Source: Acidobacteriota bacterium (lineage in GTDB: Bacteria; Acidobacteriota; Vicinamibacteria; Vicinamibacterales; UBA2999). Taken from it: 64,000 bases of DNA. The position numbers and the translations under genes were made by a program. The stretch lies in NCBI GenBank assembly GCA_018000455.1, contig JAGNJW010000001.1, positions 124,001 to 188,000 on the forward strand. Direction: 5' to 3'. Shown here piece after piece: positions 4,836 through 23,302 of this stretch. The stretch's first letter is position 1. Each line of letters opens with the position of its first letter. The notes beneath the pieces were generated by a model. The model was not told the DNA's origin. It ran no database searches and was given only the letters and a program-made list of their open reading frames with translations.

Positions 4836-6161
4836 ATGATGAGTGGCTCTGCGCGGAGAAGCACCAGTTGTGTCGCGCTGGTCCTCGGACTGGCCGTCAC
4901 GAGTCAGGCCTCCCGCGCCTCCACGACGCAACCCGCGTCGCCGGTCGTCTACGCGGCCATCGTCGACAGCATCATCCATCCCGTCTCGGCGGAGTACATC
5001 GCCACCACGCTCGACCGCGCCGACCAGGCGGGCGCGGCGCTGGTCGTCCTCACGTTGCGCACGCCGGGCGGCCTGGTGGACTCGACGCGCGCGATCGTGT
5101 CTCGCATGGTGGCCGGCAAGACACCCGTGGCGGTGTTCGTGGCGCCGTCGGGTGCCCGCGCTGCCTCCGCCGGGTTCATCCTTATCCTGGCGGCCGATGT
5201 CGCGGCGATGGCGCCCGGCACGCACATCGGCGCCGCCCATCCCGTGGATGGCAGCGGCCAGAAAATGGACGACACCGTGTCGGCCAAGGCGGCCGAGGAT
5301 CTCTCCGCCTATGCCCGCACGCTGGCCACCGCACGCCACCGCAACGTCACCCTGGCGGCCGAGGCAGTCAGCAAGAGCCGCGCCTTCACCGAAGGGGAGG
5401 CGCGCGACGCCGAGCCACCGCTCATCGACTTGGTGGCCACCGATCTGACGGACCTGCTGCGGCAGCTCGACGGTCGGACGATCACCCGCTTCGACGGCAC
5501 CAGGACGGTGCTGCACACGGCCAACGCCAGCATCGTGCCGATCGAGATGACACTGCGCCAGCGCGTGCTGAGCGCCGTCGCCCATCCCAACGTCGCCTAC
5601 CTGCTGATGAGCCTGGGGACGCTCGCCCTCACGATTGAGCTCTGGAATCCGGGTGCCGTGCTGCCCGGGGTGGTCGGCGGCCTGTGCCTGCTGCTGGCCT
5701 TCTTCGCCTTCTCGGTCTTGCCGGTGAACGTGGCCGGCGTGCTGCTCGTGGCCTTCGGCCTGGTGCTGCTGGTGCTCGAGCTCGTGGTCACGAGCTTCGG
5801 ACTGCTGACCGTGGGCGGCATCGTGAGCCTGATCTTCGGGTCGATGATCCTGGTCGACTCACCGCTGCCCGAGCTGCAGCTGAGCTCCAGCGTCGTCGTG
5901 CCCGTGGTCCTCGGGTTCACGGCGATCGGGGCGGCGCTGGCGCGCCTGGGGCTGGCCGCCCAGCGGCGCCCCCCGGCGACTGGCGCCTCGGCGATGATCG
6001 GTGCGCCGGGCGAGGCGTTGACCGTCATTGACGAACGCGGCGGACAAGTCGCCACGCTCGGTGAGATCTGGCAGGCGACCGCGGCCGAATCGATTCCACA
6101 GGGCGGCCGGGTGCGCATCACGCGCGTCGAGGGTCTGCGCCTGCACGTTCGCAAAGACTGA
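4836..6161 (+). CDS. NfeD-type membrane serine protease (ClpP-class, STOPP)
   Basis: 441 residues (ATG at 4836, alternative 4839). After a signal peptide (about 1-29) comes a ClpP-class protease domain (about 37-215): TLRTPGGLV (73-81, oxyanion loop), catalytic Ser111 in [10 protein letters not shown], and a probable catalytic lysine at Lys151 in TVSAKAAED, at nearly the Ser-Lys spacing of archaeal 1510-N. Then come four hydrophobic segments (about 235-355) and a C-terminal NfeD beta-barrel domain (about 380-441). In Pyrococcus the equivalent protease cleaves the C-terminal region of the stomatin encoded next door. The same partner gene follows here after 8 bases, which supports a joint role in membrane-protein quality control. 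Confidence 0.9.
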
Positions 6162-11582: not shown

Positions 11583-12542
11583 CTACTTGTCGCTGAGTGT
11601 CTTGCGAGGGTAGACCTCGATCGTGTCGCCGATCACGATGGTCATGAGATCGTAGCCAACCGCCAGCGGCCCTCCGTACGTCTTGCGCGTCGGGCCGATG
11701 AGGTCGTCGGCCGTCGTCGGCGACGGCACGATGTGTGAGTAGACGCCGAGCCGCGGCTTCACCCTGGTGAAGATCGTGCCCACCTGTTCGGGACTGGCGT
11801 GATGGGAGATGACCCGCTCGATCGCGTGGTCGCCCTGCACCTGCGCCCGGCGCAACTCCACCTCGGGGCTGATCACCTCGTGCACCAGCACGTCCACGCC
11901 CCTGGCGTGGTCGACCAGGGGCTCGAAGAAGCGTGTGTCGCCCGAGAAGGCCACCGAACGGCCCTGGTAGTCGACGCGGTAGCCATAGGCAGGATCGATG
12001 ACACCGCCGTGGTTGACGGCAAAAGCCGTGACCTTCAGTCCGTCGCGCTCGAAGACCACGCCAGGCTCGACGTTTCTGGCAGCCAGGCGCACGCCTTCGA
12101 GCGGGAAGCCTTCGTCCTTCGAGCGCATCTCGACGTCCCACTTGAACGCCTGCTCGAGGTGCCCGCTCATCTCGGCCGTGCCCGGCGGGCCCACCACTTC
12201 GAGCGCCTTCGCGCGCCCGAACACCCAGCTCGTGAGCCACACGTCGGGCAGGCCGACGACGTGATCGGAGTGCAGGTGCGTGAGGAAGACGGCGTCGACG
12301 GTCGTGAGGGTGCCGCGGGCGCCGATCTCGAACAGGCGCTGCGTGGCGCCGCGCCCGGCGTCGATCAGGATCTTGCGCGGGCCCGCTTCAACCAGGATCG
12401 ACGGCCCGAAGCGTTCCATGTTCGGCCGCGGATTGCCCGTGCCGAGCAGGGTCACCTGCAACCGGCCGGCTTCCTGGGCGCCCGGTGTGGCACACCATGC
12501 CGCGACGGCCAGCCACAGTGCGAATACGCGGCGCCGTGTCAT
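11583..12542 (-). CDS. Exported metallo-beta-lactamase-fold hydrolase (RNase Z/arylsulfatase-like)
   Basis: 319 residues with a signal peptide (about 1-22). Zinc motif THLHSDHVVG (His89, His91, Asp93, His94), then VNHGG, FSGDT (third ligand Asp) and a downstream His in SHHASPEQVG and SHIVPSP. The layout is that of the RNase Z/ElaC-like MBL group, but export to the periplasm makes tRNA processing unlikely; secreted relatives hydrolyse sulfate esters or lactones. Its start codon overlaps the stop of hpaR, so it is the last gene of the minus arm of the aromatic island. A role on an ester or lactone precursor of the pathway is speculation. Confidence 0.82.
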   Translation of the reverse strand: MTRRRVFALWLAVAAWCATPGAQEAGRLQVTLLGTGNPRPNMERFGPSILVEAGPRKILIDAGRGATQRLFEIGARGTLTTVDAVFLTHLHSDHVVGLPDVWLTSWVFGRAKALEVVGPPGTAEMSGHLEQAFKWDVEMRSKDEGFPLEGVRLAARNVEPGVVFERDGLKVTAFAVNHGGVIDPAYGYRVDYQGRSVAFSGDTRFFEPLVDHARGVDVLVHEVISPEVELRRAQVQGDHAIERVISHHASPEQVGTIFTRVKPRLGVYSHIVPSPTTADDLIGPTRKTYGGPLAVGYDLMTIVIGDTIEVYPRKTLSDK

Positions 12543-13000
12543 CGTGCCCTCCTCTTCTTGCCGGGATTGCCGTCGTTGACCGACGCTACTTGTTCAAGCA
12601 GGACATAGAGCCGCTGCATGTTGGCGTCGCCAACGTCGCTCGTGAGAGAGGCGTAGCGCGCCTCGGATTCCGCTCCCGCCTTGCGCAGCAGGCGGGTGCC
12701 AGCGGCCGAGAGCGACACCATCGTGGTGCGCAGGTCGGTGGCCATCGTGCGGCGATGGATGAGGCCGCGGGCGTCGAGCGTGCGCAGGATGCGTGACAGG
12801 CTCGGCAGGCCGAGGCAGGTGACCGCCGCCAGCGCCGAGGCATTGGTCTTGGGCGTGGTGCTCAGCGCGCGCAGCACGCGCCACTGCTGCTCGGTGACGC
12901 CGTGAAGCCTGAGGAGCGGCCTGAAGCGCGCCATCACGGCCTCGCGGGCTCTGAGCAGCGCCATCGGCAGCGAGCGGTCGAACTCGCGCAGCGGGCTCAT
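12539..13000 (-). CDS. hpaR: MarR-family repressor of homoprotocatechuate degradation (HpaR/HpcR)
   Basis: 153 residues from ATG 13000. The opening SLPMALLRAREAVMARFRPL followed by LHGVTEQQWRVLRAL is characteristic of HpaR, which represses the meta-cleavage hpa genes and is released by 4-hydroxyphenylacetate or homoprotocatechuate in E. coli. The winged helix-turn-helix spans about 45-115. The start overlaps the stop of hpaG (ATGA), so regulator and pathway gene are co-transcribed. Its likely operator is the near-palindrome at 14783-14804. Confidence 0.88.
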   Translation of the reverse strand: MSPLREFDRSLPMALLRAREAVMARFRPLLRLHGVTEQQWRVLRALSTTPKTNASALAAVTCLGLPSLSRILRTLDARGLIHRRTMATDLRTTMVSLSAAGTRLLRKAGAESEARYASLTSDVGDANMQRLYVLLEQVASVNDGNPGKKRRAR

Positions 13001-13863
13001 GGCCGGGGCTCGTCCTCGACGCCATTGCTGAGCGTGCCGACCCCGCTCACGGTGACCTCGACCCGGTCGCCAGGCAGCAAGTAGACCGGCGGCGTCCGGC
13101 GGGCGCCGGCGCCAGGGGGCGTCCCAGTGAGAATGACGTCGCCGGTCTCGAGGGTCGTGAACGAGGAGATGTAGGCCAGGAGCTTCGGGACCTGAAAGAT
13201 CAGATGCGCGGTGGTGTCGTGCTGGCGCTGGTCGCCGTTCACGACGGTGGTCACGGTGAGCCCGTCGAGCGGCCCTGCTTCGTCGAGTGTGCACAGCCAC
13301 GGCCCGAGCGATCCGCTCCGCTCGAAGTTCTTGCCCGGCGTCACGTTGAACTTGCCGTGCCTGACCCAGTCGCGCAGCGTGCCGTCGTTGGCGCAGGTGA
13401 TCCCGGCAATTGCCTCGAGCGCCGTTGACTCAGTCAACCGGCGGCCGCCACGTCCGACCACTAGCGCCACCTCGCCCTCGTAGTCGAACTCTGCTGATTC
13501 GTGCGGCCGAAGCAGCGGCGCCCGATGCCCGACGAACGAACTCGCCGTGCGCATGAAGATGCTGGGATAGGCCGGGGGCGGGGTCTTGTCGCCGTATTCT
13601 TCGTGCCGTTCGGCGTAGTTGACGCCCACGCACAGAATCTTCCCGGGCCGGGGAATGGGCGGCAAGTAGTCGATGGCGTCGAGTCCGTGTTCGGGCAACC
13701 CGTGCCAGACGCGCCGAACCATCTCCGCGAAGTCGTCCAGCGCCAGCAGCTCGTTCAGCGACCGCGCCGGCATCGCGCCGCCCGCGCCGAGCTCGACGAC
13801 GCGGTCTTCGCGCACGACCCCAAACGTCTCGCGGCCGTGCGCTCGGAAGCTGACGAACTTCAT
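12997..13863 (-). CDS. hpaG: Fumarylacetoacetate hydrolase-family decarboxylase/isomerase, HpaG-type
   Basis: 288 residues. FAH-fold metal ligands Glu129, Glu131 and Asp160 lie in EFDYEGEVALVVG and CANDGTLRDW; the ILTGTPPG loop (about 255) closes the active site. HpaG converts 5-oxo-pent-3-ene-1,2,5-tricarboxylate to 2-oxo-hept-3-ene-1,7-dioate by decarboxylation and isomerisation. E. coli HpaG is a tandem two-domain protein; here there is a single domain, as in species with split hpaG1/hpaG2, and no second copy is in the window. It starts one base after the stop of the DapA-like gene and overlaps hpaR by 4 bases. A general FAH hydrolase is the alternative, but context favours HpaG. Confidence 0.82.
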   Translation of the reverse strand: MKFVSFRAHGRETFGVVREDRVVELGAGGAMPARSLNELLALDDFAEMVRRVWHGLPEHGLDAIDYLPPIPRPGKILCVGVNYAERHEEYGDKTPPPAYPSIFMRTASSFVGHRAPLLRPHESAEFDYEGEVALVVGRGGRRLTESTALEAIAGITCANDGTLRDWVRHGKFNVTPGKNFERSGSLGPWLCTLDEAGPLDGLTVTTVVNGDQRQHDTTAHLIFQVPKLLAYISSFTTLETGDVILTGTPPGAGARRTPPVYLLPGDRVEVTVSGVGTLSNGVEDEPRP

Positions 13864-13864
13864 C

Positions 13865-14764
13865 TCACGCGCCCGCGAATCCCGCCCGCTCCAGCACACC
13901 ATCGAGCCTGCGCTCGAGCTCCTTGGTGGCGGGCATGAGTGGCAGGCGATGGTCGTTGGCCGGAATCAGGCCCAGGCGCTTCATCATGTATTTGATGGGG
14001 ATCGGATTGGTGTCGAAGAACACCGCCCGGTTGATTTCGAGCAGCCGGTCGTGCAGCTGCCGCGCGGTCGCCAGGTCGTTCTGCCACACGGCCTCGCACA
14101 TGTCGGCCAGCACCCTCGGGCGCAGGTTGCCGACGGCGTTCATCAACCCACACGCGCCCACGGCCAGGCCCGGAAAGCTCAACTCCTCGAGCCCCACGAA
14201 GATCTTCATCGCGGGCTGAGACTGCAGACACTCCGACACGAAGCCCAAGTCGTTGACCGCGTGCTTCATGCCGACGAAGGTCGGCGAGGCCTTGGCGATC
14301 TCGTCGAGGGTCTCGCGCGTGACCGACACCGCCGCCCGTCCGGGGATGTGGTAGACCATCCACGGCGTGTCGAGGCCGCGGATGGCTTCCAGGAAGTAGG
14401 CCACGAGTCCGCGCTGCGGCGGCTTGATGTAGTAGGGCGTGACGATGAGCAGCGCGTCGGCGCCGGCCTCGGCCGCATGCACCGTCAGCGCGCGCGTTTC
14501 GGCCAGCGACTGCGAGCCGGTGGCGGCCACGACCGGCGCGCGTCCGCCGGCCGTGGTGAGGGCGATGTCGACCAGCCGGTTGCGCTCGGCGACGGTGAGC
14601 GACGAGGGCTCGGCGGTCGTGCCATTGACGAGGATGCCGTGCGACCCCTCGGCGATCTGGCGTTCGACGAGGCCGGCGTAGGCGTCGAAGTCGACCAGAT
14701 CGCCGCGAAACGGCGTCACGAGTGGCGGAATGGAGCCGGCCAGGCGGCGCGTGTTGTTGGTCAT
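13865..14764 (-). CDS. DapA-like (class I) aldolase / dihydrodipicolinate synthase family lyase
   Basis: 299 residues from ATG 14764. TIM-barrel enzyme with Schiff-base Lys167 (FVGMKHAVN), Tyr138 (MVYHIPGR) and the NGTTAEPSSL loop (48-56) that replaces the GTTGES of true DapA. That change fits a 2-oxo-acid aldolase or hydratase acting on something other than aspartate semialdehyde. As first gene of the minus arm it probably carries the missing last step: cleavage of 4-hydroxy-2-oxoheptanedioate to pyruvate and succinate semialdehyde, usually done by the unrelated class II aldolase HpaI. That job is inferred. An in-frame ATG at 14794 lies inside the palindrome and is less likely. Confidence 0.8.
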   Translation of the reverse strand: MTNNTRRLAGSIPPLVTPFRGDLVDFDAYAGLVERQIAEGSHGILVNGTTAEPSSLTVAERNRLVDIALTTAGGRAPVVAATGSQSLAETRALTVHAAEAGADALLIVTPYYIKPPQRGLVAYFLEAIRGLDTPWMVYHIPGRAAVSVTRETLDEIAKASPTFVGMKHAVNDLGFVSECLQSQPAMKIFVGLEELSFPGLAVGACGLMNAVGNLRPRVLADMCEAVWQNDLATARQLHDRLLEINRAVFFDTNPIPIKYMMKRLGLIPANDHRLPLMPATKELERRLDGVLERAGFAGA

Positions 14765-14782
14765 GGTCGCGTCTTGACGGGC

Positions 14783-14804
14783 AATAGTTACCATGATAAC
14801 TATT
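14783..14804. promoter_or_regulatory. Probable HpaR operator, near-perfect 22-bp palindrome
   Basis: AATAGTTA (14783-14790) and TAACTATT (14797-14804) are exact 8-bp inverted arms around CCATGA, whose inner CATG is also symmetric; 20 of 22 positions obey dyad symmetry. It sits in the 78-bp gap between the divergent arms of the hpa island, in an otherwise G+C-rich region. Size and A/T content suit a MarR-family dimer, and the repressor gene is in the minus arm. Confidence 0.72.
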
Positions 14805-14842
14805 CCGCTGCAAGCGGTGCCGTCCCGCTCTGCCTGCACACC

Positions 14843-15244
14843 ATGCCGCATCTCACCATCGAATACTCCGCGAACCTCGAGCCCCGGCTGGCGGTGCAGC
14901 GGCTGGTCGATTGTCTGCACGAGGCCGCCATCGAGACCGGCGTGTTCCCGCTCGGCGGTATTCGCACGCGGGCGGCTGCCCGGTCCCACTTCCGTGTCGC
15001 CGACGGCGATCCGGCCAACGCCTTCGTGCACGTGGAGCTTCGCATCGCGGCCGGACGTGACGAAGCCACGCGTGAGCGTGCCGGCCAGCACGTGTTCGCG
15101 GCGCTGACCGAAGCCCTGGGCCCGATCGCGGCGGTGAGCCCGCTCGCCATCTCGTTCGAGTTGCAGGAGATCACGCCGGCGTGGAGCGCGCGGCTCAACA
15201 ACATCCACGACCTCCTGGCCCGCAAGAAGGGCGGCTCCTCGTAG
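14843..15244 (+). CDS. hpaF: 5-carboxymethyl-2-hydroxymuconate delta-isomerase
   Basis: 133 residues. After removal of Met the protein begins with the catalytic proline (PHLTIEYSANL), the hallmark of the HpaF/CHMI branch of the tautomerase superfamily. Length (about 126-130) and conserved segments VHVELRIAAGRD and NNIHDLL fit. It isomerises 5-carboxymethyl-2-hydroxymuconate to 5-oxo-pent-3-ene-1,2,5-tricarboxylate. It is the first gene of the plus-strand operon, 39 bases after the palindrome. Two bases separate it from hpaE. Confidence 0.93.
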   Translation: MPHLTIEYSANLEPRLAVQRLVDCLHEAAIETGVFPLGGIRTRAAARSHFRVADGDPANAFVHVELRIAAGRDEATRERAGQHVFAALTEALGPIAAVSPLAISFELQEITPAWSARLNNIHDLLARKKGGSS

Positions 15245-15246
15245 CC

Positions 15247-16770
15247 ATGGCCGCCAGCCTTGCCGACAACCTCACCCGGGCAAAGCGAGTGCTGGCGCGC
15301 TTTCGCGCCTCCCCGGTGTCGCACGTCATCGGCGGCGCGCCGTCGGCCGGGAGCGGCGCGACGTTTGCCAACGTCTCGCCTGTGGACGGCTCGGCGCTCG
15401 GTCAGATCGCCGCCGGTGGCACCACCGAAGTCGATGAGGCCGCGCGTGCCGCGGCCGAGGTCGGCCGGGCCTGGAAGCAGGTGCCCGGCGCGACCCGGCG
15501 CCGGCTGCTGCACAAGGTCGCCGATCTCATCGAGTCGAGGGCCGACGAGATCGCGCTGGTCGAATCGATGGACACCGGCCAGCCGATTCGTTTCATGGAG
15601 AAGGCGGCCGTGCGGGGCGCTGAGAACTTCCGCTTCTACGCCGACCTGGCGCCGGGGGCGGCCGACGGCCAGTCGCTGCCGACCGAGCAGCACCTGAACT
15701 ACACCCTGCGCACCCCGATCGGCCCGGTGGCGGTCATCACGCCCTGGAATACGCCGTTCATGCTCGCCACCTGGAAGATCGCGCCAGCGCTGGCGGCCGG
15801 CTGCACCGTGGTCCACAAGCCCGCGGAGTGGAGTCCGCTGAGCGCGACGCTGCTGGCCGAGATCATGGCGGAGGCGGGTCTTCCACCGGGCGTGACCAAT
15901 CTCGTGCACGGGATGGGCGAGGTGGCCGGCAAGGCGCTCACCGAGCACCCCGACATCAAGGCCGTGGCCTTCGTCGGTGAGTCGTCGACCGGGTCGGCGA
16001 TCATGGCGCAGGGCGCCAGCACGCTCAAGCGCGTGCACTTCGAGCTGGGCGGCAAGAACCCGGTGCTGGTGTTCGCCGACGCCGATCTCGACCGGACGCT
16101 CGATGCGGTGATCTTCATGATCTACTCGCTCAACGGCGAACGCTGCACCTCGAGCAGCCGGCTGCTGGTCGAGCGCTCGATCCATGACTCGTTCGTCGAA
16201 CGCCTGACCGCGCGCCTGGGTCAGCTGCGCGTGGGCCATCCGCTCGATCCGGAGACCGAGATCGGGCCGCTCATCCACCCGCGCCACGTCGCCAAGGTCG
16301 ACGGCTACATGGCGATCGCGGCCGAGGAGGGGGCCGACGTGCGTCGCGGCGTTCTACCCGCTGGACTCGGCGGCAACTACGTCGCCCCGGCCCTCTTCGT
16401 GGGCGCGCAGCCGTCGATGCGGATCGCGCAAGAGGAGATCTTCGGCCCGGTGCTGACGGTGATGCCGTTCGACAGCGACGCCGAGGCGCTCGCGATGGCC
16501 AACGGCACGCGCTACGGACTGGCCGCCTACCTCTGGACGTCGGACGTCATCCGCGCGCACCGGCTCGCCATCGATCTCGAGGCGGGCATGGTCTGGGTCA
16601 ACTCCGAGAACGTGCGCCACCTGGGCACGCCGTTTGGGGGTATGAAGGCCAGCGGCATCGGGCGCGACGGTGGCGACTACAGCTTCGACTTCTACATGGA
16701 GACCAGGAACGTGGCCATCGCGCTCGGCCACCACGTTATCCCCACACTGGGAGCCGGTCCCGCCCGGTGA
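15247..16770 (+). CDS. hpaE: 5-carboxymethyl-2-hydroxymuconate semialdehyde dehydrogenase
   Basis: 507 residues. Aldehyde dehydrogenase fold with NAD-binding WNTPFMLATWK (167-177), general base Glu266 (FELGGKNP) and nucleophile Cys300 (NGERCTSSSRL). The sequence NGERCTSSSR, the FMLATWKIAPALAAG segment and the EIFGPVLTVMPF block are typical of HpaE. It oxidises the ring-cleavage semialdehyde to the dicarboxylate. The genomic place directly after hpaF supports the call. It overlaps the next gene by 4 bases (GTGA). Confidence 0.93.
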   Translation: MAASLADNLTRAKRVLARFRASPVSHVIGGAPSAGSGATFANVSPVDGSALGQIAAGGTTEVDEAARAAAEVGRAWKQVPGATRRRLLHKVADLIESRADEIALVESMDTGQPIRFMEKAAVRGAENFRFYADLAPGAADGQSLPTEQHLNYTLRTPIGPVAVITPWNTPFMLATWKIAPALAAGCTVVHKPAEWSPLSATLLAEIMAEAGLPPGVTNLVHGMGEVAGKALTEHPDIKAVAFVGESSTGSAIMAQGASTLKRVHFELGGKNPVLVFADADLDRTLDAVIFMIYSLNGERCTSSSRLLVERSIHDSFVERLTARLGQLRVGHPLDPETEIGPLIHPRHVAKVDGYMAIAAEEGADVRRGVLPAGLGGNYVAPALFVGAQPSMRIAQEEIFGPVLTVMPFDSDAEALAMANGTRYGLAAYLWTSDVIRAHRLAIDLEAGMVWVNSENVRHLGTPFGGMKASGIGRDGGDYSFDFYMETRNVAIALGHHVIPTLGAGPAR

Positions 16771-18269
16771 TACCGATGCTCGATCCCCGCGTTCATCCGC
16801 GCGTGCAGGCCTGGCTGGCCGACCCGGCCAAGTCATTGTGGTCAGGCGGGCATGGGTTCGCGGGTCGATCGCACGACAGAATCGAAGTTCGCGACCCGGC
16901 CACCGCCAACGTCGTCGCCAGCGTGCCGGACGCCACGGCCGAGGACGTCGATGAGATCGTCCGGGCAGCGGCAGCCGCCGTCACCACCGGCGCCTGGACG
17001 GCGCGCTCGCCCTCGGACCGCGAGCGCTGCCTGCTGCGCCTGGCCGATCTCGTCGAGGCGCATGCCGACGAACTCCAGCACCTCATCGTGCTCGAGAACG
17101 GCAAGCTGCTCCAGGCGGCGCGGCGCGAAGTGGACGGCAGCGTGCGCTTCATCCGCTACGCCGCTGGATGGGCCACCAAGATCGTGGGCGAAACCCTGGA
17201 CGTCAGCTTCGAGCAGACGGGCGCCGGGTTTCAGGCCTACACGCGCCGCGAACCGGTGGGCGTCGTGGGCGGCATTCTGCCCTGGAACATGCCGCTGTCG
17301 ATGGCGGTGTGGAAGGCGGCGCCGGCGCTGGCCTGTGGCTGCGCGGTCGTGCTGAAGCCGGCCGAGGAAACGCCGCTCTCGGCCTTGCGGCTGGCCGAAC
17401 TGGCGGCCGAGGCTGGCCTGCCGGCCGGCTGGCTGAGTGTCGCGACCGGCGGCGCGCGGGCCGGTGCGGCCCTGGTCGCGCACCCGCTCGTCGCGAAAGT
17501 GTCGTTCACCGGCTCGACCGAGGTGGGGCGCCAGGTGGCCCAGACGGCGGCCGGGCGGCTGGCCCGGTTTTCGCTCGAGCTCGGCGGCAAGTCGCCGGTC
17601 GTGGTGTTCGACGACGTCGACGTGACCGCGGCGGCCGCGGACGTGGCGCGGGGAATCTTCTACAACCAGGGGCAGATCTGCGCCGCCGGGTCGAGACTCT
17701 ACGTGCACCGCCGCCGCTTCGACGAGATGACCGATCGCGTTGGCGCGTTGGCTGCCGGCATGACCATCGGCTCGGGCTTCGACGGCGCCTCGCAACTGGG
17801 CCCGCTGGTCTCACAGGCACAGCGCGATCGGGTGCTGGGCTATATCGCCGGCGGGCGGGCGGCCGGGGCATGCACGATCGCCGGTGGCGGGGCGCCCGAA
17901 CGCGACGGCTACTTCGTCGAGCCGACGGTGTTCACCGATGTCAGCGCCGAGATGGCGATCGTGCAGGAGGAGATCTTCGGCCCGGTGCTGGTCGTCGTGC
18001 CGTTCGACGAAGAAGACGAAGTGCTGGCCGCGGTCAACGGCACCGCCTACGGCCTCGGCGCCAGCATCTACTCGCAGGATCTGTCGCGTGTGCACCGGCT
18101 GATTCCACAGATCAGAGCCGGCACGGTCTTCGTCAACGCGCCGGTTCGCACCGATCCCAACCTGCCGTTTGGCGGCGTCAAGGCCTCGGGGCTGGGCCGC
18201 GAGCACGGCTCGTCGATGATCGACCTCTACACCGAACTCAAGTCGGTGGTGATCGGCTATCGGGCATGA
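16767..18269 (+). CDS. Second NAD-dependent aldehyde dehydrogenase, probably for (4-hydroxy)phenylacetaldehyde
   Basis: 500 residues from GTG 16767; ATG 16776 is also possible. Catalytic Glu271 (LELGGKSPV) and Cys305 (NQGQICAAGSR) are intact, with cofactor loop PWNMPLSMAVWK (172-183). The sequence style (FAVDxP-like N-terminus, NQGQIC) is that of betaine/phenylacetaldehyde/4-trimethylaminobutyraldehyde dehydrogenases, distinct from HpaE beside it. Flanked by an aminotransferase and a 2-oxoacid decarboxylase-like enzyme, it most plausibly oxidises 4-hydroxyphenylacetaldehyde to 4-hydroxyphenylacetate, the entry compound of the hpa pathway. Succinate semialdehyde, the pathway end product, is an alternative substrate. 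Confidence 0.88.
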   Translation: MIPMLDPRVHPRVQAWLADPAKSLWSGGHGFAGRSHDRIEVRDPATANVVASVPDATAEDVDEIVRAAAAAVTTGAWTARSPSDRERCLLRLADLVEAHADELQHLIVLENGKLLQAARREVDGSVRFIRYAAGWATKIVGETLDVSFEQTGAGFQAYTRREPVGVVGGILPWNMPLSMAVWKAAPALACGCAVVLKPAEETPLSALRLAELAAEAGLPAGWLSVATGGARAGAALVAHPLVAKVSFTGSTEVGRQVAQTAAGRLARFSLELGGKSPVVVFDDVDVTAAAADVARGIFYNQGQICAAGSRLYVHRRRFDEMTDRVGALAAGMTIGSGFDGASQLGPLVSQAQRDRVLGYIAGGRAAGACTIAGGGAPERDGYFVEPTVFTDVSAEMAIVQEEIFGPVLVVVPFDEEDEVLAAVNGTAYGLGASIYSQDLSRVHRLIPQIRAGTVFVNAPVRTDPNLPFGGVKASGLGREHGSSMIDLYTELKSVVIGYRA

Positions 18270-19300
18270 GCGACATTCCGCCAGTGCCTTGGTCGGAGCT
18301 GTCGGCCAACGAGAATCCCTCGCCGCCGTCGCCTCGCGTTGCCGCGGCCGTGGTCGAGGCCCTGGCGCACCTCAACCGCTATCCGGAAGGGGAGGACGCG
18401 GCACTGCGCGAGGCGGTGGCCGGGCACCTCGGACGGGGTCTGACACCAGCGCATGTCGTGACCGGCTCGAGCGGCTCCGACGTGCTCGAGCTCATCGCTC
18501 GTGCTCTGCTTGCACCCGGCGACGAGGTCGTCGTGTCGCAGCCCACGTTCCATGTCTATGCCTCGACCGCGCGTCATCAGCAGGCGCGGGTGGTGACAGT
18601 GCCCCTGGACCCCGTGTCGCTCGCCTGCGACGTGGACGGAGTGCTCGGGGTGGTGACGCCGGCGACGCGTCTCGTCTACCTCTGCAATCCAGGCAATCCC
18701 ACGGGCGTCGTCGTGCCGAACGCCGACGTCGAGGCCCTGCTGGCCGGGCTCCCGCCGCGGGTCGTGCTGGTGGCCGACGAAGTCTACGTGCACTACGTGA
18801 CCAGCCCCGCCTTCCCCGACTCGATCGGCCAGGTGCTGGCCGGGCGGCCGGTAGTGATCGTGCACTCCTTCTCGAAGGTCTACGCGCTGGCGGGTCTGCG
18901 CCTGGGCTACGCGGTGACGCGACCCGATCTGGCGGCGACGATCGGCGGCGTTCGCCGCAAGTTTCACCTGGGACGCCTCGACGTCGCGGCCGGCATCGCC
19001 GCCTTGGCCGATCAGGAGTTCGTGCGCGACAGCGTGGCGCTCGTGCACCAGGAACTGCCGAGGTTCTACGACGCCTTCCGGCGGCTCGGCCTGACCTTCT
19101 GGCCCACTGACGCGAACTTCGTGCTGTTCCGGGCGCCGGTGGACGCAAGCGAGCTGGTGCGCGCGCTGGCCGCGCGCGGCGTGAAGGTGCGGACCACCGA
19201 CGGCAACGGCCTGCCGGGCCATGTGCGCGTCACGGTCGGACGGCCCGAAGAGAATCAGCAGTTCGTGGCAGCCCTTTCGGCGGTACTCACATGCGCATGA
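18266..19300 (+). CDS. Fold-type I aminotransferase (HisC/aromatic type), putative tyrosine aminotransferase
   Basis: 344 residues. PLP enzyme with Lys204 in HSFSKVYALAGLRLGY, ANENPSPPSP near the N-terminus (substrate-binding Asn), CNPGNPTG (140-147) and ADEVYVHYV (170-178). The overall pattern is that of histidinol-phosphate aminotransferase, a group that includes aromatic aminotransferases. It lies in a catabolic operon away from other histidine genes, so transamination of tyrosine or phenylalanine to the arylpyruvate is the likely job. The start overlaps the preceding stop by ATGA, and its end overlaps the next gene by 10 bases. Confidence 0.85.
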   Translation: MSDIPPVPWSELSANENPSPPSPRVAAAVVEALAHLNRYPEGEDAALREAVAGHLGRGLTPAHVVTGSSGSDVLELIARALLAPGDEVVVSQPTFHVYASTARHQQARVVTVPLDPVSLACDVDGVLGVVTPATRLVYLCNPGNPTGVVVPNADVEALLAGLPPRVVLVADEVYVHYVTSPAFPDSIGQVLAGRPVVIVHSFSKVYALAGLRLGYAVTRPDLAATIGGVRRKFHLGRLDVAAGIAALADQEFVRDSVALVHQELPRFYDAFRRLGLTFWPTDANFVLFRAPVDASELVRALAARGVKVRTTDGNGLPGHVRVTVGRPEENQQFVAALSAVLTCA

Positions 19301-20922
19301 CCGGCGGCACGGCCGTCGTCAGCGCGCTGCTGGCCGAGGGTGTCGACACGATCTTTGGCCTGCCCGGCATCCAGAACGACTGGTTCTACAACGCCCTCTA
19401 CGATGCCGGCGATCGCATCCGCGTGATTCACACGCGCCACGAGCAGGGCGCCGCCTACATGGCGCTCGGCTACGCGCTGGCCCGCGGCGGCATAGGCGTC
19501 TACAACGTGGTGCCCGGGCCAGGCGTGCTCAACACCACGGCGGCGCTGGCCACCGCCTATGCGCTGAATGCGCAGGTGTTGTGCCTGACCGGACAGATCC
19601 CGCTTGCCGCCATCGGCCGCGACGGGGGTGTGCTGCACGAGATTCCCGACCAGCTTGGCGTGCTCCGCAGCCTCACCAAGTGGGCCGAGCGCGCCACCAG
19701 CGTGGCCGAGGCCGGGCGCCTGACGACTGAGGCCTTCGTCGCGCTGCGCTCGGGCCGGCCCCGTCCTGTTGCGCTCGAAGTGCCGATGGACGTGCTGGCC
19801 GCCGAGGCTGACGTCGACGTCGTCGGCCCTCCGATGCCCGGCGCCAACGAGCCGCTCGACGACGACCTGCTCAGTGAAGCTGTGGCGCTACTGGCGGGCG
19901 CGCGCCGGCCTCTCATCTGGGTGGGCGGGGGAGCGCACGGCGCCAGTGCCGCCATCCGGCAGCTTGCCGACCATCTGCAGGCGCCGGTCGGCTCGTATCG
20001 CACCGGGCGCGGCGTGGTCGACAGCCGCCATCACCTCGCGCTGGTGCAGCCGCAGGCGCATGCCTTGTGGCGCGACGTCGACGTCGTGCTGGCGATCGGC
20101 ACGAACATGCGCGTGCCGTTGCAGAACTGGGGTGTTGACGATCGCCTGCAGGTCATTCGCGTCGACGTCGACCCCGCCACCCACGACCGGGTGACGAGGC
20201 CCGCGGTCGCCCTGACGGCGCGGGCTGAAGACGCCGTGCCGCGCCTGCTCGAGTGGTTGACACGGGAGGTGTCGCCGCGGCCGTCACGTCGAGACGAGAT
20301 GGCGGTGCTGGCGGCACAGTGGCGGGAACAGTCGGCCTTCCTGCAGCCACAGATCGCCTATCTCGATGTGATCCGCGAGGCCCTCGGCGAGCACGGCGTG
20401 TTCGTCGACGAGCTCACCCAAGTGGGCTTCTCGGCGCGCGTCGTGATGCCGGTTTACCATCCACGCACGTTCATCTCCACCGGCTATCAGGGCACCCTCG
20501 GCTACGGGTTCCAGACCGCGCTCGGCGTGAAGGTGGCACGTCCCGACGTGCCGGTCATCTCGGTGACGGGCGATGGGGGATTCATGTTCGGCGTGCAGGA
20601 ACTGGCTACCGCCGTGCAGCACGGCATCAACCTCGTGACCATCGTCTTCAACAACAATCAGTACGGCAACGTGCAGCACATGCAGCGCACGCTCTACGGG
20701 CAGCGCGTCATCGCCACCGACCTCCGCAATCCGAATTTTCCGCAGCTCGCCGCTTCGTTCGGCGCCGCTGGCTACCGGGCCGAGACGCCGGACGCCCTGG
20801 CCGACGCCCTTCACCACGCCTTGGCCGCCGGCCTGCCGGCGCTCATCGAAGTGCCATGCGGCGACATGCCCGACGTCGATCGGTTCCGCAAACTGCCGCG
20901 GCTGCGCGGCGGAAAGGGCTGA
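19291..20922 (+). CDS. ThDP-dependent enzyme, acetolactate-synthase-like; putative arylpyruvate decarboxylase
   Basis: 543 residues (ATG 19291 or 19297). Three-domain ThDP architecture: N-terminal PYR domain with catalytic Glu51 in RHEQGAAYMA, central Rossmann-like domain (about 190-320) and PP domain with GDGGF (about 427) through FNNNQYGN (about 457), the Mg-ThDP motif. It belongs to the acetolactate synthase/pyruvate oxidase/arylpyruvate decarboxylase superfamily. No small regulatory subunit gene is nearby, which argues against valine/isoleucine synthesis. Between an aminotransferase and ring-degradation genes, decarboxylation of 4-hydroxyphenylpyruvate or phenylpyruvate is the best reading, as an Ehrlich-type step. 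Substrate is inferred. Confidence 0.82.
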   Translation: MRMTGGTAVVSALLAEGVDTIFGLPGIQNDWFYNALYDAGDRIRVIHTRHEQGAAYMALGYALARGGIGVYNVVPGPGVLNTTAALATAYALNAQVLCLTGQIPLAAIGRDGGVLHEIPDQLGVLRSLTKWAERATSVAEAGRLTTEAFVALRSGRPRPVALEVPMDVLAAEADVDVVGPPMPGANEPLDDDLLSEAVALLAGARRPLIWVGGGAHGASAAIRQLADHLQAPVGSYRTGRGVVDSRHHLALVQPQAHALWRDVDVVLAIGTNMRVPLQNWGVDDRLQVIRVDVDPATHDRVTRPAVALTARAEDAVPRLLEWLTREVSPRPSRRDEMAVLAAQWREQSAFLQPQIAYLDVIREALGEHGVFVDELTQVGFSARVVMPVYHPRTFISTGYQGTLGYGFQTALGVKVARPDVPVISVTGDGGFMFGVQELATAVQHGINLVTIVFNNNQYGNVQHMQRTLYGQRVIATDLRNPNFPQLAASFGAAGYRAETPDALADALHHALAAGLPALIEVPCGDMPDVDRFRKLPRLRGGKG

Positions 20923-20923
20923 C

Positions 20924-21508
20924 GTGACCCCCAGCCAGGACGCGATCTGGCAGCGTGCCCAGCCGCTGCTCGGCGTGCGGTCGAACGACGTGCACACGCT
21001 CTATTGCTACCGCTTCGCGCGTGCCCTGTGCGCGCTCCATCCGGACGCCGATGCCGAGGTGGTGATTCCCGCCATCCTGCTGCACGACATCGGCTGGAGC
21101 ACGGTGCCACCCGACAAGATCCTGCAGTCGTTCGGCCCGCGCACCGAGTATCCGGAGCTGCGGCGTCAGCACGAGGTCGAAGGCGCGCGGCTGGCGCGCG
21201 AGATCCTGGCGGCGATTGGCCATCCAGTGGCTCAGACCGCAGCCATCGCAAGAATCATCGATGGCCACGACACGCGCGCCGACGCGCTGTCGCTCGAAGA
21301 CGGACTGGTCAAGGACGCCGACAAGCTGTGGCGCTACACGCCGTTCGGCCTCGAGACGGTGCGCGGCTGGTTCGGCCACGGTGTCGACGAGCAGCTCGCG
21401 CTGCTCGACGAGTGGGGCCGCACGCGCTTCTTCGGGGAGGCCGCCCGCCACATGGCCCTCGGCCTGCTGACCGGGCTGCGCGCCGAACGGGAGCTGCGCG
21501 GTGGATAG
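20924..21508 (+). CDS. HD-domain phosphohydrolase-like protein
   Basis: 194 residues from GTG 20924, one base after the preceding stop. Metal-binding HD pattern: His24, His54-Asp55 (ILLHDIGWS), a histidine-aspartate pair in IIDGHDTRAD (115-116) and Asp131/Asp133 in VKDADKLWRY. The DADKLWRYT and LHDIGWS motifs resemble small HD hydrolases that act on nucleotides or phosphorylated small molecules. No signalling domain is attached. It sits inside the catabolic operon and its 3' end overlaps the P-loop gene, so it is co-expressed with the pathway. Actual substrate unknown. Confidence 0.75.
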   Translation: MTPSQDAIWQRAQPLLGVRSNDVHTLYCYRFARALCALHPDADAEVVIPAILLHDIGWSTVPPDKILQSFGPRTEYPELRRQHEVEGARLAREILAAIGHPVAQTAAIARIIDGHDTRADALSLEDGLVKDADKLWRYTPFGLETVRGWFGHGVDEQLALLDEWGRTRFFGEAARHMALGLLTGLRAERELRGG

Positions 21509-22340
21509 GGCGGCCAGCGTGATTCCACGCGACTGGGACGCCGGCGCGGCGCTCGAGCAGTTGGCCGCGCGCCAGAGCGTCGTCATCCTCGCGGGTCTTC
21601 CCGGGGTGGGCAAGAGCCTGCTCCTGCAGCAACTGGCCCGAATGGCGCGGGCAGCGGGCCGGCAGGTGTCTCTGCTCCAGTGGGATGTCGCGCGCCGCGC
21701 CTTCGAGACCGAGGCCATCCTGGCGCGCTATCCCGAAGTCGACGGCTTCACCCACGCCGCCATCAAGCGGGCGGCGGGCCTGTGGGCCAGGGCCGCCGTG
21801 TGGCAGTGGCGACAGGCGCACGATGCGACCCACCTGCTGCTCGGCGAAGCGCCGCTGGTCGGCGGCCGGCTCGCCGAGCTGGCCACCGTGGCAGCTGACG
21901 AGGCCGAGCCGTTTCTGGCCAGCGACGAGGTGCGCTTCGTGCTGCCGGTGCCATCGCGCGAGGTGCGCCGGCTGATCGAGGCGGCACGCCTCAGGTCGAA
22001 CCAGTCGCCGGCCCACGAGCGCGAACGTGGCGATGCGCCCCCCAACGTGCTGCGGGCGCTGTGGGAAGACGTCTACCGCGAGGGCGCGGCGACCGGCCTC
22101 CTGCCGTCGGTGGCGCCTGCGGGCGACATCCCTTACGATCCCGACGCCTACCGAGCCGTCTACACGTCGTGGCTCGGCGCCCGTCACCTGACCGTCCTCG
22201 AGATCGACCGGCAGCTCGAGCCGGCCGGATCGGTCTACGAGATCGGCGCCGTGACAAGCGAGCTGACACCGTCGCCGGCGGAGGTCGAGCGCGTCATGCG
22301 GATCGTCGATGGCCATGAGACGAAAGGCACGCGCGCATGA
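21501..22340 (+). CDS. P-loop NTPase of unknown function in the aromatic operon
   Basis: 279 residues from GTG 21501, overlapping the HD gene by 8 bases. Walker A is GLPGVGKS (32-39) within VVILAGLPGVGKSLLLQQLA; a Walker B-like acidic strand may be HLLLGEAPL (about 111-119). The N-terminal half looks like a nucleotide kinase or AAA-like core. The C-terminal half (150-279) has no motif I recognise. I cannot name a family. Overlaps on both sides (8 bases upstream, 4 bases with the dioxygenase gene) tie it to the pathway, perhaps as a kinase acting with the HD hydrolase or as an activator. Confidence 0.7.
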   Translation: MDRAASVIPRDWDAGAALEQLAARQSVVILAGLPGVGKSLLLQQLARMARAAGRQVSLLQWDVARRAFETEAILARYPEVDGFTHAAIKRAAGLWARAAVWQWRQAHDATHLLLGEAPLVGGRLAELATVAADEAEPFLASDEVRFVLPVPSREVRRLIEAARLRSNQSPAHERERGDAPPNVLRALWEDVYREGAATGLLPSVAPAGDIPYDPDAYRAVYTSWLGARHLTVLEIDRQLEPAGSVYEIGAVTSELTPSPAEVERVMRIVDGHETKGTRA

Positions 22341-23302
22341 AGGCACCTGAGATCGTCCGTCTGGGCCATGTCATCCTGCAGGTCACCGACCTGGCAGCGT
22401 CACGGGCCTTCTACGTCGGCCTGCTCGGTCTCGATGTCGTCGACGAGTCGGCAAAGCACCTGTGCCTGCGGGGCGTCGAGGATCGCGAGTGGACGCTCAT
22501 GCTCGAGGCGAGCAGCGCTCCCGGCGTTCGTCAGATCGGTTTCAAGGTGTCGGCCGAAGAGGATCTCGACGGCCTCGAACAGCTGGCCGGCCGCCTCGGG
22601 CTCACCTCGGCCCGCCGCCAGGAAGTGGAGCGGCCGTCGCTGCTCACGCTCGACGATCCGTTCGGCTCGCCGCTCGCGTTCTACTTCGCGTCGGTGAAGC
22701 GCCCGTGGCTGCTGCAGCAATACGATCGCCGCCGCTGTCCGTCCATTCAGCGCATCGACCACGTCAACCTGTTTGTCGCCAACCCCGGCCAGGCCCTGAC
22801 GTGGTACCGGGACGCGCTCGGGTTCCGCCTGACCGAGTACACCGAAGACGAGGCCGGCAACGTCTGGGCGGCATGGCTCCACCGCAAGGGCAACGTGCAC
22901 GATGTGGCGTTCACCAATGGGGCCGGGCCGCGGCTGCACCACGTGGCGTTCTGGATGCCCGACGCCGCCCAGGTGCTGCAGTTGTGCGACGTGCTCGGCG
23001 CCTCGCGCACCGGAGCCATCGAGCGCGGCCCTGGACGGCACGGCATCTCGAACGCCCTCTATCTCTATCTGCGCGACCCCGACGGGCACCGCGTCGAGAT
23101 CTACACTTCCGACTACCTCACCGTGGATCCCGATTTCGAGCCGACCAGGTGGCGCCTCGACGATCCATATCGCCAGCAGCTGTGGGGCGGCCTGGCACCC
23201 AAGAGCTGGTTCACGGAGGGCAGCCCGTTCACCCGGGCCGACGGCAGTCACCGGCCGCTGACGCCACCGGTCCTCGAGGGGCTGCCGCGCTACATCAGCT
23301 GA
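22337..23302 (+). CDS. hpaD: 3,4-dihydroxyphenylacetate 2,3-dioxygenase, type I extradiol (VOC)
   Basis: 321 residues. Two glyoxalase/bleomycin-resistance (VOC) modules: residues 5-125 and 137-265. Iron ligands of the second module are His142 (IDHVNLFV), His201 or 202 (GPRLHHVAFW) and Glu254 (HRVEIYTSDY); the second-sphere acid-base His188 (NVHDVAF) is also present. The pattern closely follows the homoprotocatechuate dioxygenases of Brevibacterium and Arthrobacter, not the class III LigB-type HpaD of E. coli. It opens the ring of homoprotocatechuate between carbons 2 and 3. It is the last gene of the operon. Confidence 0.92.
   Translation: MKAPEIVRLGHVILQVTDLAASRAFYVGLLGLDVVDESAKHLCLRGVEDREWTLMLEASSAPGVRQIGFKVSAEEDLDGLEQLAGRLGLTSARRQEVERPSLLTLDDPFGSPLAFYFASVKRPWLLQQYDRRRCPSIQRIDHVNLFVANPGQALTWYRDALGFRLTEYTEDEAGNVWAAWLHRKGNVHDVAFTNGAGPRLHHVAFWMPDAAQVLQLCDVLGASRTGAIERGPGRHGISNALYLYLRDPDGHRVEIYTSDYLTVDPDFEPTRWRLDDPYRQQLWGGLAPKSWFTEGSPFTRADGSHRPLTPPVLEGLPRYIS

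Follow-up and report, generated by a model that had tools for sequence, protein, structure and literature searches.

In this work, sequence comparison indicated that the repressor HpaR very probably binds at a 22-bp palindrome at positions 14783-14804 of the window (the whole stretch of 64,000 nucleotides analysed here), a few genes away from its own gene. The palindrome can be regarded as a well-supported example of the HpaR switch, because the same site occupies the same place beside HpaR genes in many distantly related bacteria. Taking the model as a whole, we are highly confident that an HpaR dimer on the palindrome blocks the hpaF arm, most likely limits the hpaR arm, and would be released by an aromatic intermediate of the pathway. 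The general understanding of such repressors is unchanged by this; what is gained is a usable predicted HpaR-binding motif that holds across phyla, the same gene layout well beyond the enterobacteria, where the operator had been characterised, and a clear and cheap prediction for a single short intergenic region.

The palindrome and the two divergent operons

The first-pass annotation had described a 22-bp palindrome with perfect 8-bp arms between divergent catabolic arms that include a MarR-family regulator, and it was exact in both sequence and placement. The letters at 14783-14804 are AATAGTTACCATGATAACTATT, built as AATAGTTA-CCATGA-TAACTATT; the central CATG is symmetric too, so that 10 of the 11 pairs match and the only asymmetric pair is C/A at positions 9 and 14. 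An inverted repeat of 42 bp, weaker (76%), continues outwards from it as CTTGACG...CTGCAAG, 14773-14814. The palindrome sits in a 78-bp gap between the divergent starts 14764 (-) and 14843 (+), and 18 bp separate it from the first codon of the leftward operon. The features of the gap and the two arms are as follows.

12539-13000, minus strand: hpaR, MarR-family regulator (P0004, 153 aa), third gene of its arm; 136.4 bits with the TIGR02337 HpaR model (curated cut-off 121.2)
12997-13863, minus strand: HpaG-like fumarylacetoacetate-hydrolase-family protein (P0005); PF01557 215 bits, TIGR02303 2e-45, below cut-off
13865-14764, minus strand: dapL, DapA-like aldolase (P0002), first leftward gene; TIGR02313 HpaI-NOT-DapA 264 bits (cut-off 396.7), TIGR00674 dapA 239 bits
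14783-14804, no strand: candidate HpaR operator, 22-bp palindrome with core TTAC-CATG-ATAA; 30.5 bits with the motif from other HpaR loci
14843-15244, plus strand: hpaF, 5-carboxymethyl-2-hydroxymuconate isomerase (P0003), first rightward gene; PF02962 143 bits
15247-16770, plus strand: hpaE, 5-carboxymethyl-2-hydroxymuconate semialdehyde dehydrogenase (P0006); TIGR02299 755 bits, over cut-off
16767-23302, plus strand: second aldehyde dehydrogenase, aminotransferase, TPP enzyme, HD-domain protein, ATPase-like protein and hpaD
22337-23302, plus strand: hpaD dioxygenase; TIGR02295 377 bits, over cut-off

The leftward operon runs from the DapA-like aldolase through the HpaG-like protein and HpaR to a metallo-beta-lactamase-fold hydrolase, with ATGA overlaps at the HpaG/HpaR and HpaR/hydrolase junctions. 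The rightward operon comprises the eight closely spaced or overlapping genes from hpaF to hpaD. The gene hpaR is the only one in the genome to exceed the TIGR02337 cut-off, and it is linked to genes of homoprotocatechuate meta-cleavage, namely HpaE and HpaD over their cut-offs, the CHMI/HpaF Pfam domain and the HpaG-like protein. The closest solved structure to P0004 is 7el2, which is named HpaR; in the structures 7el2 and 7el3, from Acinetobacter baumannii, this closest solved relative aligns with P0004 over residues 9-141.

The window has a G+C content of about 68%, and the palindrome is A/T-rich. Allowing up to three mismatches, no second match to it was found in the window, none in 100 dinucleotide shuffles, and none in the 5.19-Mb genome (5,188,020 bases). 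The degenerate consensus WWTNNTTANCATGNTAANNAWW, searched in the genome with three mismatches, likewise matched the palindrome site only.

A motif shared by HpaR loci

For comparison, 78 HpaR-encoding loci were fetched, and an unseeded palindromic motif search (EM) was run on the gene-free stretches of 45 of them, the window excluded. The motif obtained de novo was WWTNNTTAACATGTTAANNAWW, which can also be written ATTAATTAACATGTTAATTAAT. It was recovered in three of three independent runs with a log-likelihood ratio of 218.3, compared with 43.4±3.6 (maximum 49.0) for 20 shuffled sets. Scored with this window-excluded motif against the window's own composition, the palindrome reaches the 30.5 bits listed above, and the next best position in the 64 kb reaches 8.6. 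None of 19.6 million first-order (Markov-1) random positions attained the score of the palindrome, the highest being 19.4. At 20 bits or more, the motif is present in 30 of 66 hpa-linked loci and in 0 of 28 other MarR loci, a comparison that is somewhat generous in that most HpaR loci are longer than the control loci; the reversed motif, a control free of that weakness, gave no match. With two of the 28 MarR controls at 18.8 and 19.8 bits, the noise level of the motif lies just below 20 bits.

Other readings of the palindrome can be weighed against these figures. It is extremely improbable that the palindrome is a product of chance, or an RNA hairpin with no protein partner. An inverted repeat could indeed fold if transcribed, but what is conserved is a DNA motif whose distance from the genes varies, the palindrome is A/T-rich and contains no T run, and the terminator scan found none; moreover, such a palindrome is not expected in the window or the genome by the shuffles, the genome search or the simulation. 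A somewhat less remote but still very unlikely reading is that it serves another dimeric regulator, such as a TetR, GntR or further MarR protein. A/T-rich palindromes of this size are used by many regulator families, and two weaker matches to the HpaR model occur elsewhere in the genome. On the other hand, the motif tracks HpaR genes across phyla and stays below 20 bits at the other MarR loci, and no regulator besides HpaR was recognised among the scanned genes of both arms.

The assignment to HpaR can also be compared with the systems in which its operators are known. The HpaR operators of the E. coli hpa-meta operon were reportedly described by Galan and colleagues in 2003. In the hpaR-hpaG gap of the E. 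coli record, the motif matches AATCATTAACATATTAATGATT (28.7 bits), which begins 48 bp ahead of hpaG; a second, weaker match of 13.5 bits lies near hpaR. In Yersinia pseudotuberculosis, HpaR protects two TTAA-N4-TTAA sites, one of them overlapping the -10 element, and represses the operon; a second, separate site lies about 190 bp from the start (PMC7180172). Thus, the sequence-derived motif agrees with the published footprint, given the match in the E. coli gap and the TTAA-N4-TTAA protection in Yersinia. Both hpa-meta systems resemble the window in the regulator family, a core close to the TTAA-N4-TTAA type, A/T-rich symmetric flanks, the position of the site at an hpa promoter (a predicted one in the window), and an hpaR divergent from the catabolic operon. 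They differ in that the hpaR of the window is the third gene of its arm and the core is TTAC-CATG-ATAA, and in that the E. coli gap of 271 bp holds two matches, one strong and one weak, separated by 200 bp, whereas the 78-bp gap of the window holds one site. The operator reading proposed in the first-pass annotation is therefore supported by the TIGR02337 result, by a de novo motif found at the same place across phyla, and by the E. coli and Yersinia sites.

Compared with TTAACATGTTAA, the core of the palindrome differs at two central positions; it reads TTAC-N4-ATAA instead of an exact TTAA-N4-TTAA, and its C is matched on one side by L002, which has the closest HpaR in the collection. The exact arms of the palindrome were also considered as the shared element and were rejected, with few matches in relatives; it is the inner core with its A/T flanks that is shared. 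The most similar sites are carried by two loci with some of the closest HpaR proteins (each 57% identical): L002, with ACAAGTTACCATGTTAACAATT (18 of 22 bases as in the palindrome), and L113, from the same order, with CATAGTTAACATGTTAACAATC (17 of 22). The first-pass annotation had held that absence of the palindrome upstream of hpa genes in close relatives would count against HpaR. The site is present in L113, which is the only relative from the same order to have the island; in the wider set, the number of hpa-linked loci with a site varies from 30 to 40 of 66 with the score threshold. In 26 of the 66, nothing reached 16 bits; many of these are Burkholderiales loci with a diverged form, for example CTAACATGTTAG or CTAACATGTGAG, and many Burkholderiales loci have a diverged form with CTAACATGT. 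L008, L009 and L020, from gammaproteobacterial MAGs in which HpaR is 53-54% identical and the gene set, the same as here, runs in one direction, have no good site.

The position of the site is conserved together with its sequence. The layout hpaE-hpaF, site, dapL-(hpaG)-hpaR was found in ten loci (L003, L012, L013, L017, L028, L030, L031, L037, L041 and L113), where the site lies between hpaF and the DapA-like gene and hpaR follows downstream, as in the window; L012 showed no match to hpaG between the DapA-like gene and hpaR. The DapA-like protein has a 67-72% identical counterpart at the same place in relatives. In 13 more loci (L010, L016, L019, L023, L024, L025, L027, L029, L033, L034, L036, L038 and L045), the site lies between hpaF/hpaE and a divergent hpaR. 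The Rhizobiales and other, mostly alphaproteobacterial, clusters (L003, L013, L017, L028, L030, L031, L037 and L041) share the gene order of the window and the site between the first genes of the arms, but in several of them the spacing from -35 to operator is longer or shifted, and some have two overlapping sites 14-15 bp apart where the window has one. Two operator-like sites occur in L016, L024, L025, L033 and L038 (about 5866-5946), and in L003, L017, L031 and L037; the pairs are spaced 34-39 bp apart in rhodobacterial loci and overlap at 14-15 bp in others, which suggests cooperative or stacked binding of HpaR there.

Predicted promoter elements and the predicted mode of repression

The gap also contains two hexamers that flank the palindrome symmetrically.

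14774-14779, plus strand: predicted -35 element TTGACG of the hpaF-arm promoter, 3 bp from the operator
14808-14813, minus strand: possible -35 element TTGCAG of a leftward dapL-hpaG-hpaR promoter, 3 bp from the operator

On the hpaF/hpaE arm, 19 of 24 loci have TTGAC no more than 28 bases upstream of the operator, against 0.54 expected from shuffled flanks, although the 24 loci are not 24 independent cases because several are related rhodobacterial loci. On the opposite (hpaR) arm it occurs in 0 of 24. The offset of TTGACG from the operator is the same in L002 and L037, and it is one base closer in the window than in L113. A weak candidate -10 element, TAACTAT (about 14797-14803), can be placed in the right arm of the operator by a spacer of 17-18 bases; with the -10 inside the operator, a bound dimer would exclude RNA polymerase. 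A generic promoter scan found no sigma-70 promoter. TTGCAG recurs in L113 at nearly the same offset, but it is not generally conserved, and the leftward promoter is thus putative.

We hypothesize that, when the substrate is lacking, an HpaR dimer would occupy the palindrome, covering the stretch between the -35 element and the -10 element, and would block transcription of the eight-gene rightward catabolic operon. This repression of the hpaF arm through promoter blocking appears well supported, since the TTGAC -35 precedes the site in most of the loci compared. The same dimer would most likely limit the leftward dapL-hpaG-hpaR operon too, because the site is so close to its first codon, and HpaR would then control its own synthesis by negative autoregulation. 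Simultaneous repression of the hpaR arm, which is argued from geometry, has less support but is plausible. HpaR would be released by an aromatic pathway intermediate; by analogy with known systems, this may be 4-hydroxyphenylacetate or homoprotocatechuate. For Serratia HpaR, ITC saw no binding of 4-HPA or 3,4-dihydroxyphenylacetate (PMC10364317).

The suggestion of the first-pass annotation that one dimer represses both directions accordingly stood in part: the hpaF arm has its conserved -35, and the other arm has no TTGAC in any of the loci and shares its weaker TTGCAG with one relative of the same order. It is conceivable, though we consider it rather unlikely, that the palindrome acts as an HpaR operator for the rightward hpaF arm only and that the leftward hpaR arm is expressed independently. 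The -35 element is conserved on the hpaF/hpaE arm alone, and one site does not always serve both genes, as the second site of Y. pseudotuberculosis and the weaker E. coli match near hpaR indicate. However, in so short a gap there is very likely no room for a leftward promoter clear of a bound dimer, and TTGCAG occupies the symmetric place in the window and almost the symmetric place in L113.

Distribution and pathway of the island

HpaR was found in none of four congeners. Within the order, 2 of 162 genomes encode an HpaR of this similarity, and within the phylum 2 of 396 sampled genomes do; both counts include the genome of the window. Footprinting among close relatives thus relies on one member of the order, L113. 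L115, a phylum relative with HpaR 45% identical, was set aside as a probable non-orthologue, having neither adjoining hpa genes nor a site. The nearest HpaR relatives come from Gemmatimonadetes and Alphaproteobacteria MAGs. The rarity of HpaR in the order and phylum, together with its closest relatives in other phyla, suggests a probable horizontal acquisition of the island along with its regulator and operator.

For an HpaH-like hydratase, the genome has a single match, at 49 bits against a family cut-off of 351 (L116, contig positions 195419-196174); it adjoins an MFS-type transporter about 7 kb beyond the right end of the window, far from the hpa island. Because this sole match is far below the cut-off and distant, the island does not account for the hydratase step. 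A search of the genome for an HpaB-type monooxygenase found none. An aminotransferase, a TPP-dependent (decarboxylase-like) enzyme and the second aldehyde dehydrogenase (16767-20922) lie beside the homoprotocatechuate genes, and the gene set would be consistent with homoprotocatechuate being made from tyrosine- or DOPA-like amino acids. A more far-reaching proposal, which we offer tentatively and regard as doubtful, is that two overlapping promoters lie back to back with the palindrome at their centre, each -35 hexamer being exactly 3 bp beyond the palindrome, so that both arms would be switched by one HpaR dimer, and that the island would be a self-regulated cassette, rare in the phylum, for homoprotocatechuate derived from tyrosine or DOPA and not for 4-hydroxyphenylacetate.

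Two further observations concern gene content. The Gemmatimonadetes locus L002 likewise pairs HpaR with an aminotransferase and a TPP enzyme. In the window, the HD-domain and P-loop ATPase-like proteins (20924-22340), which are without close family, lie between the TPP enzyme and hpaD.
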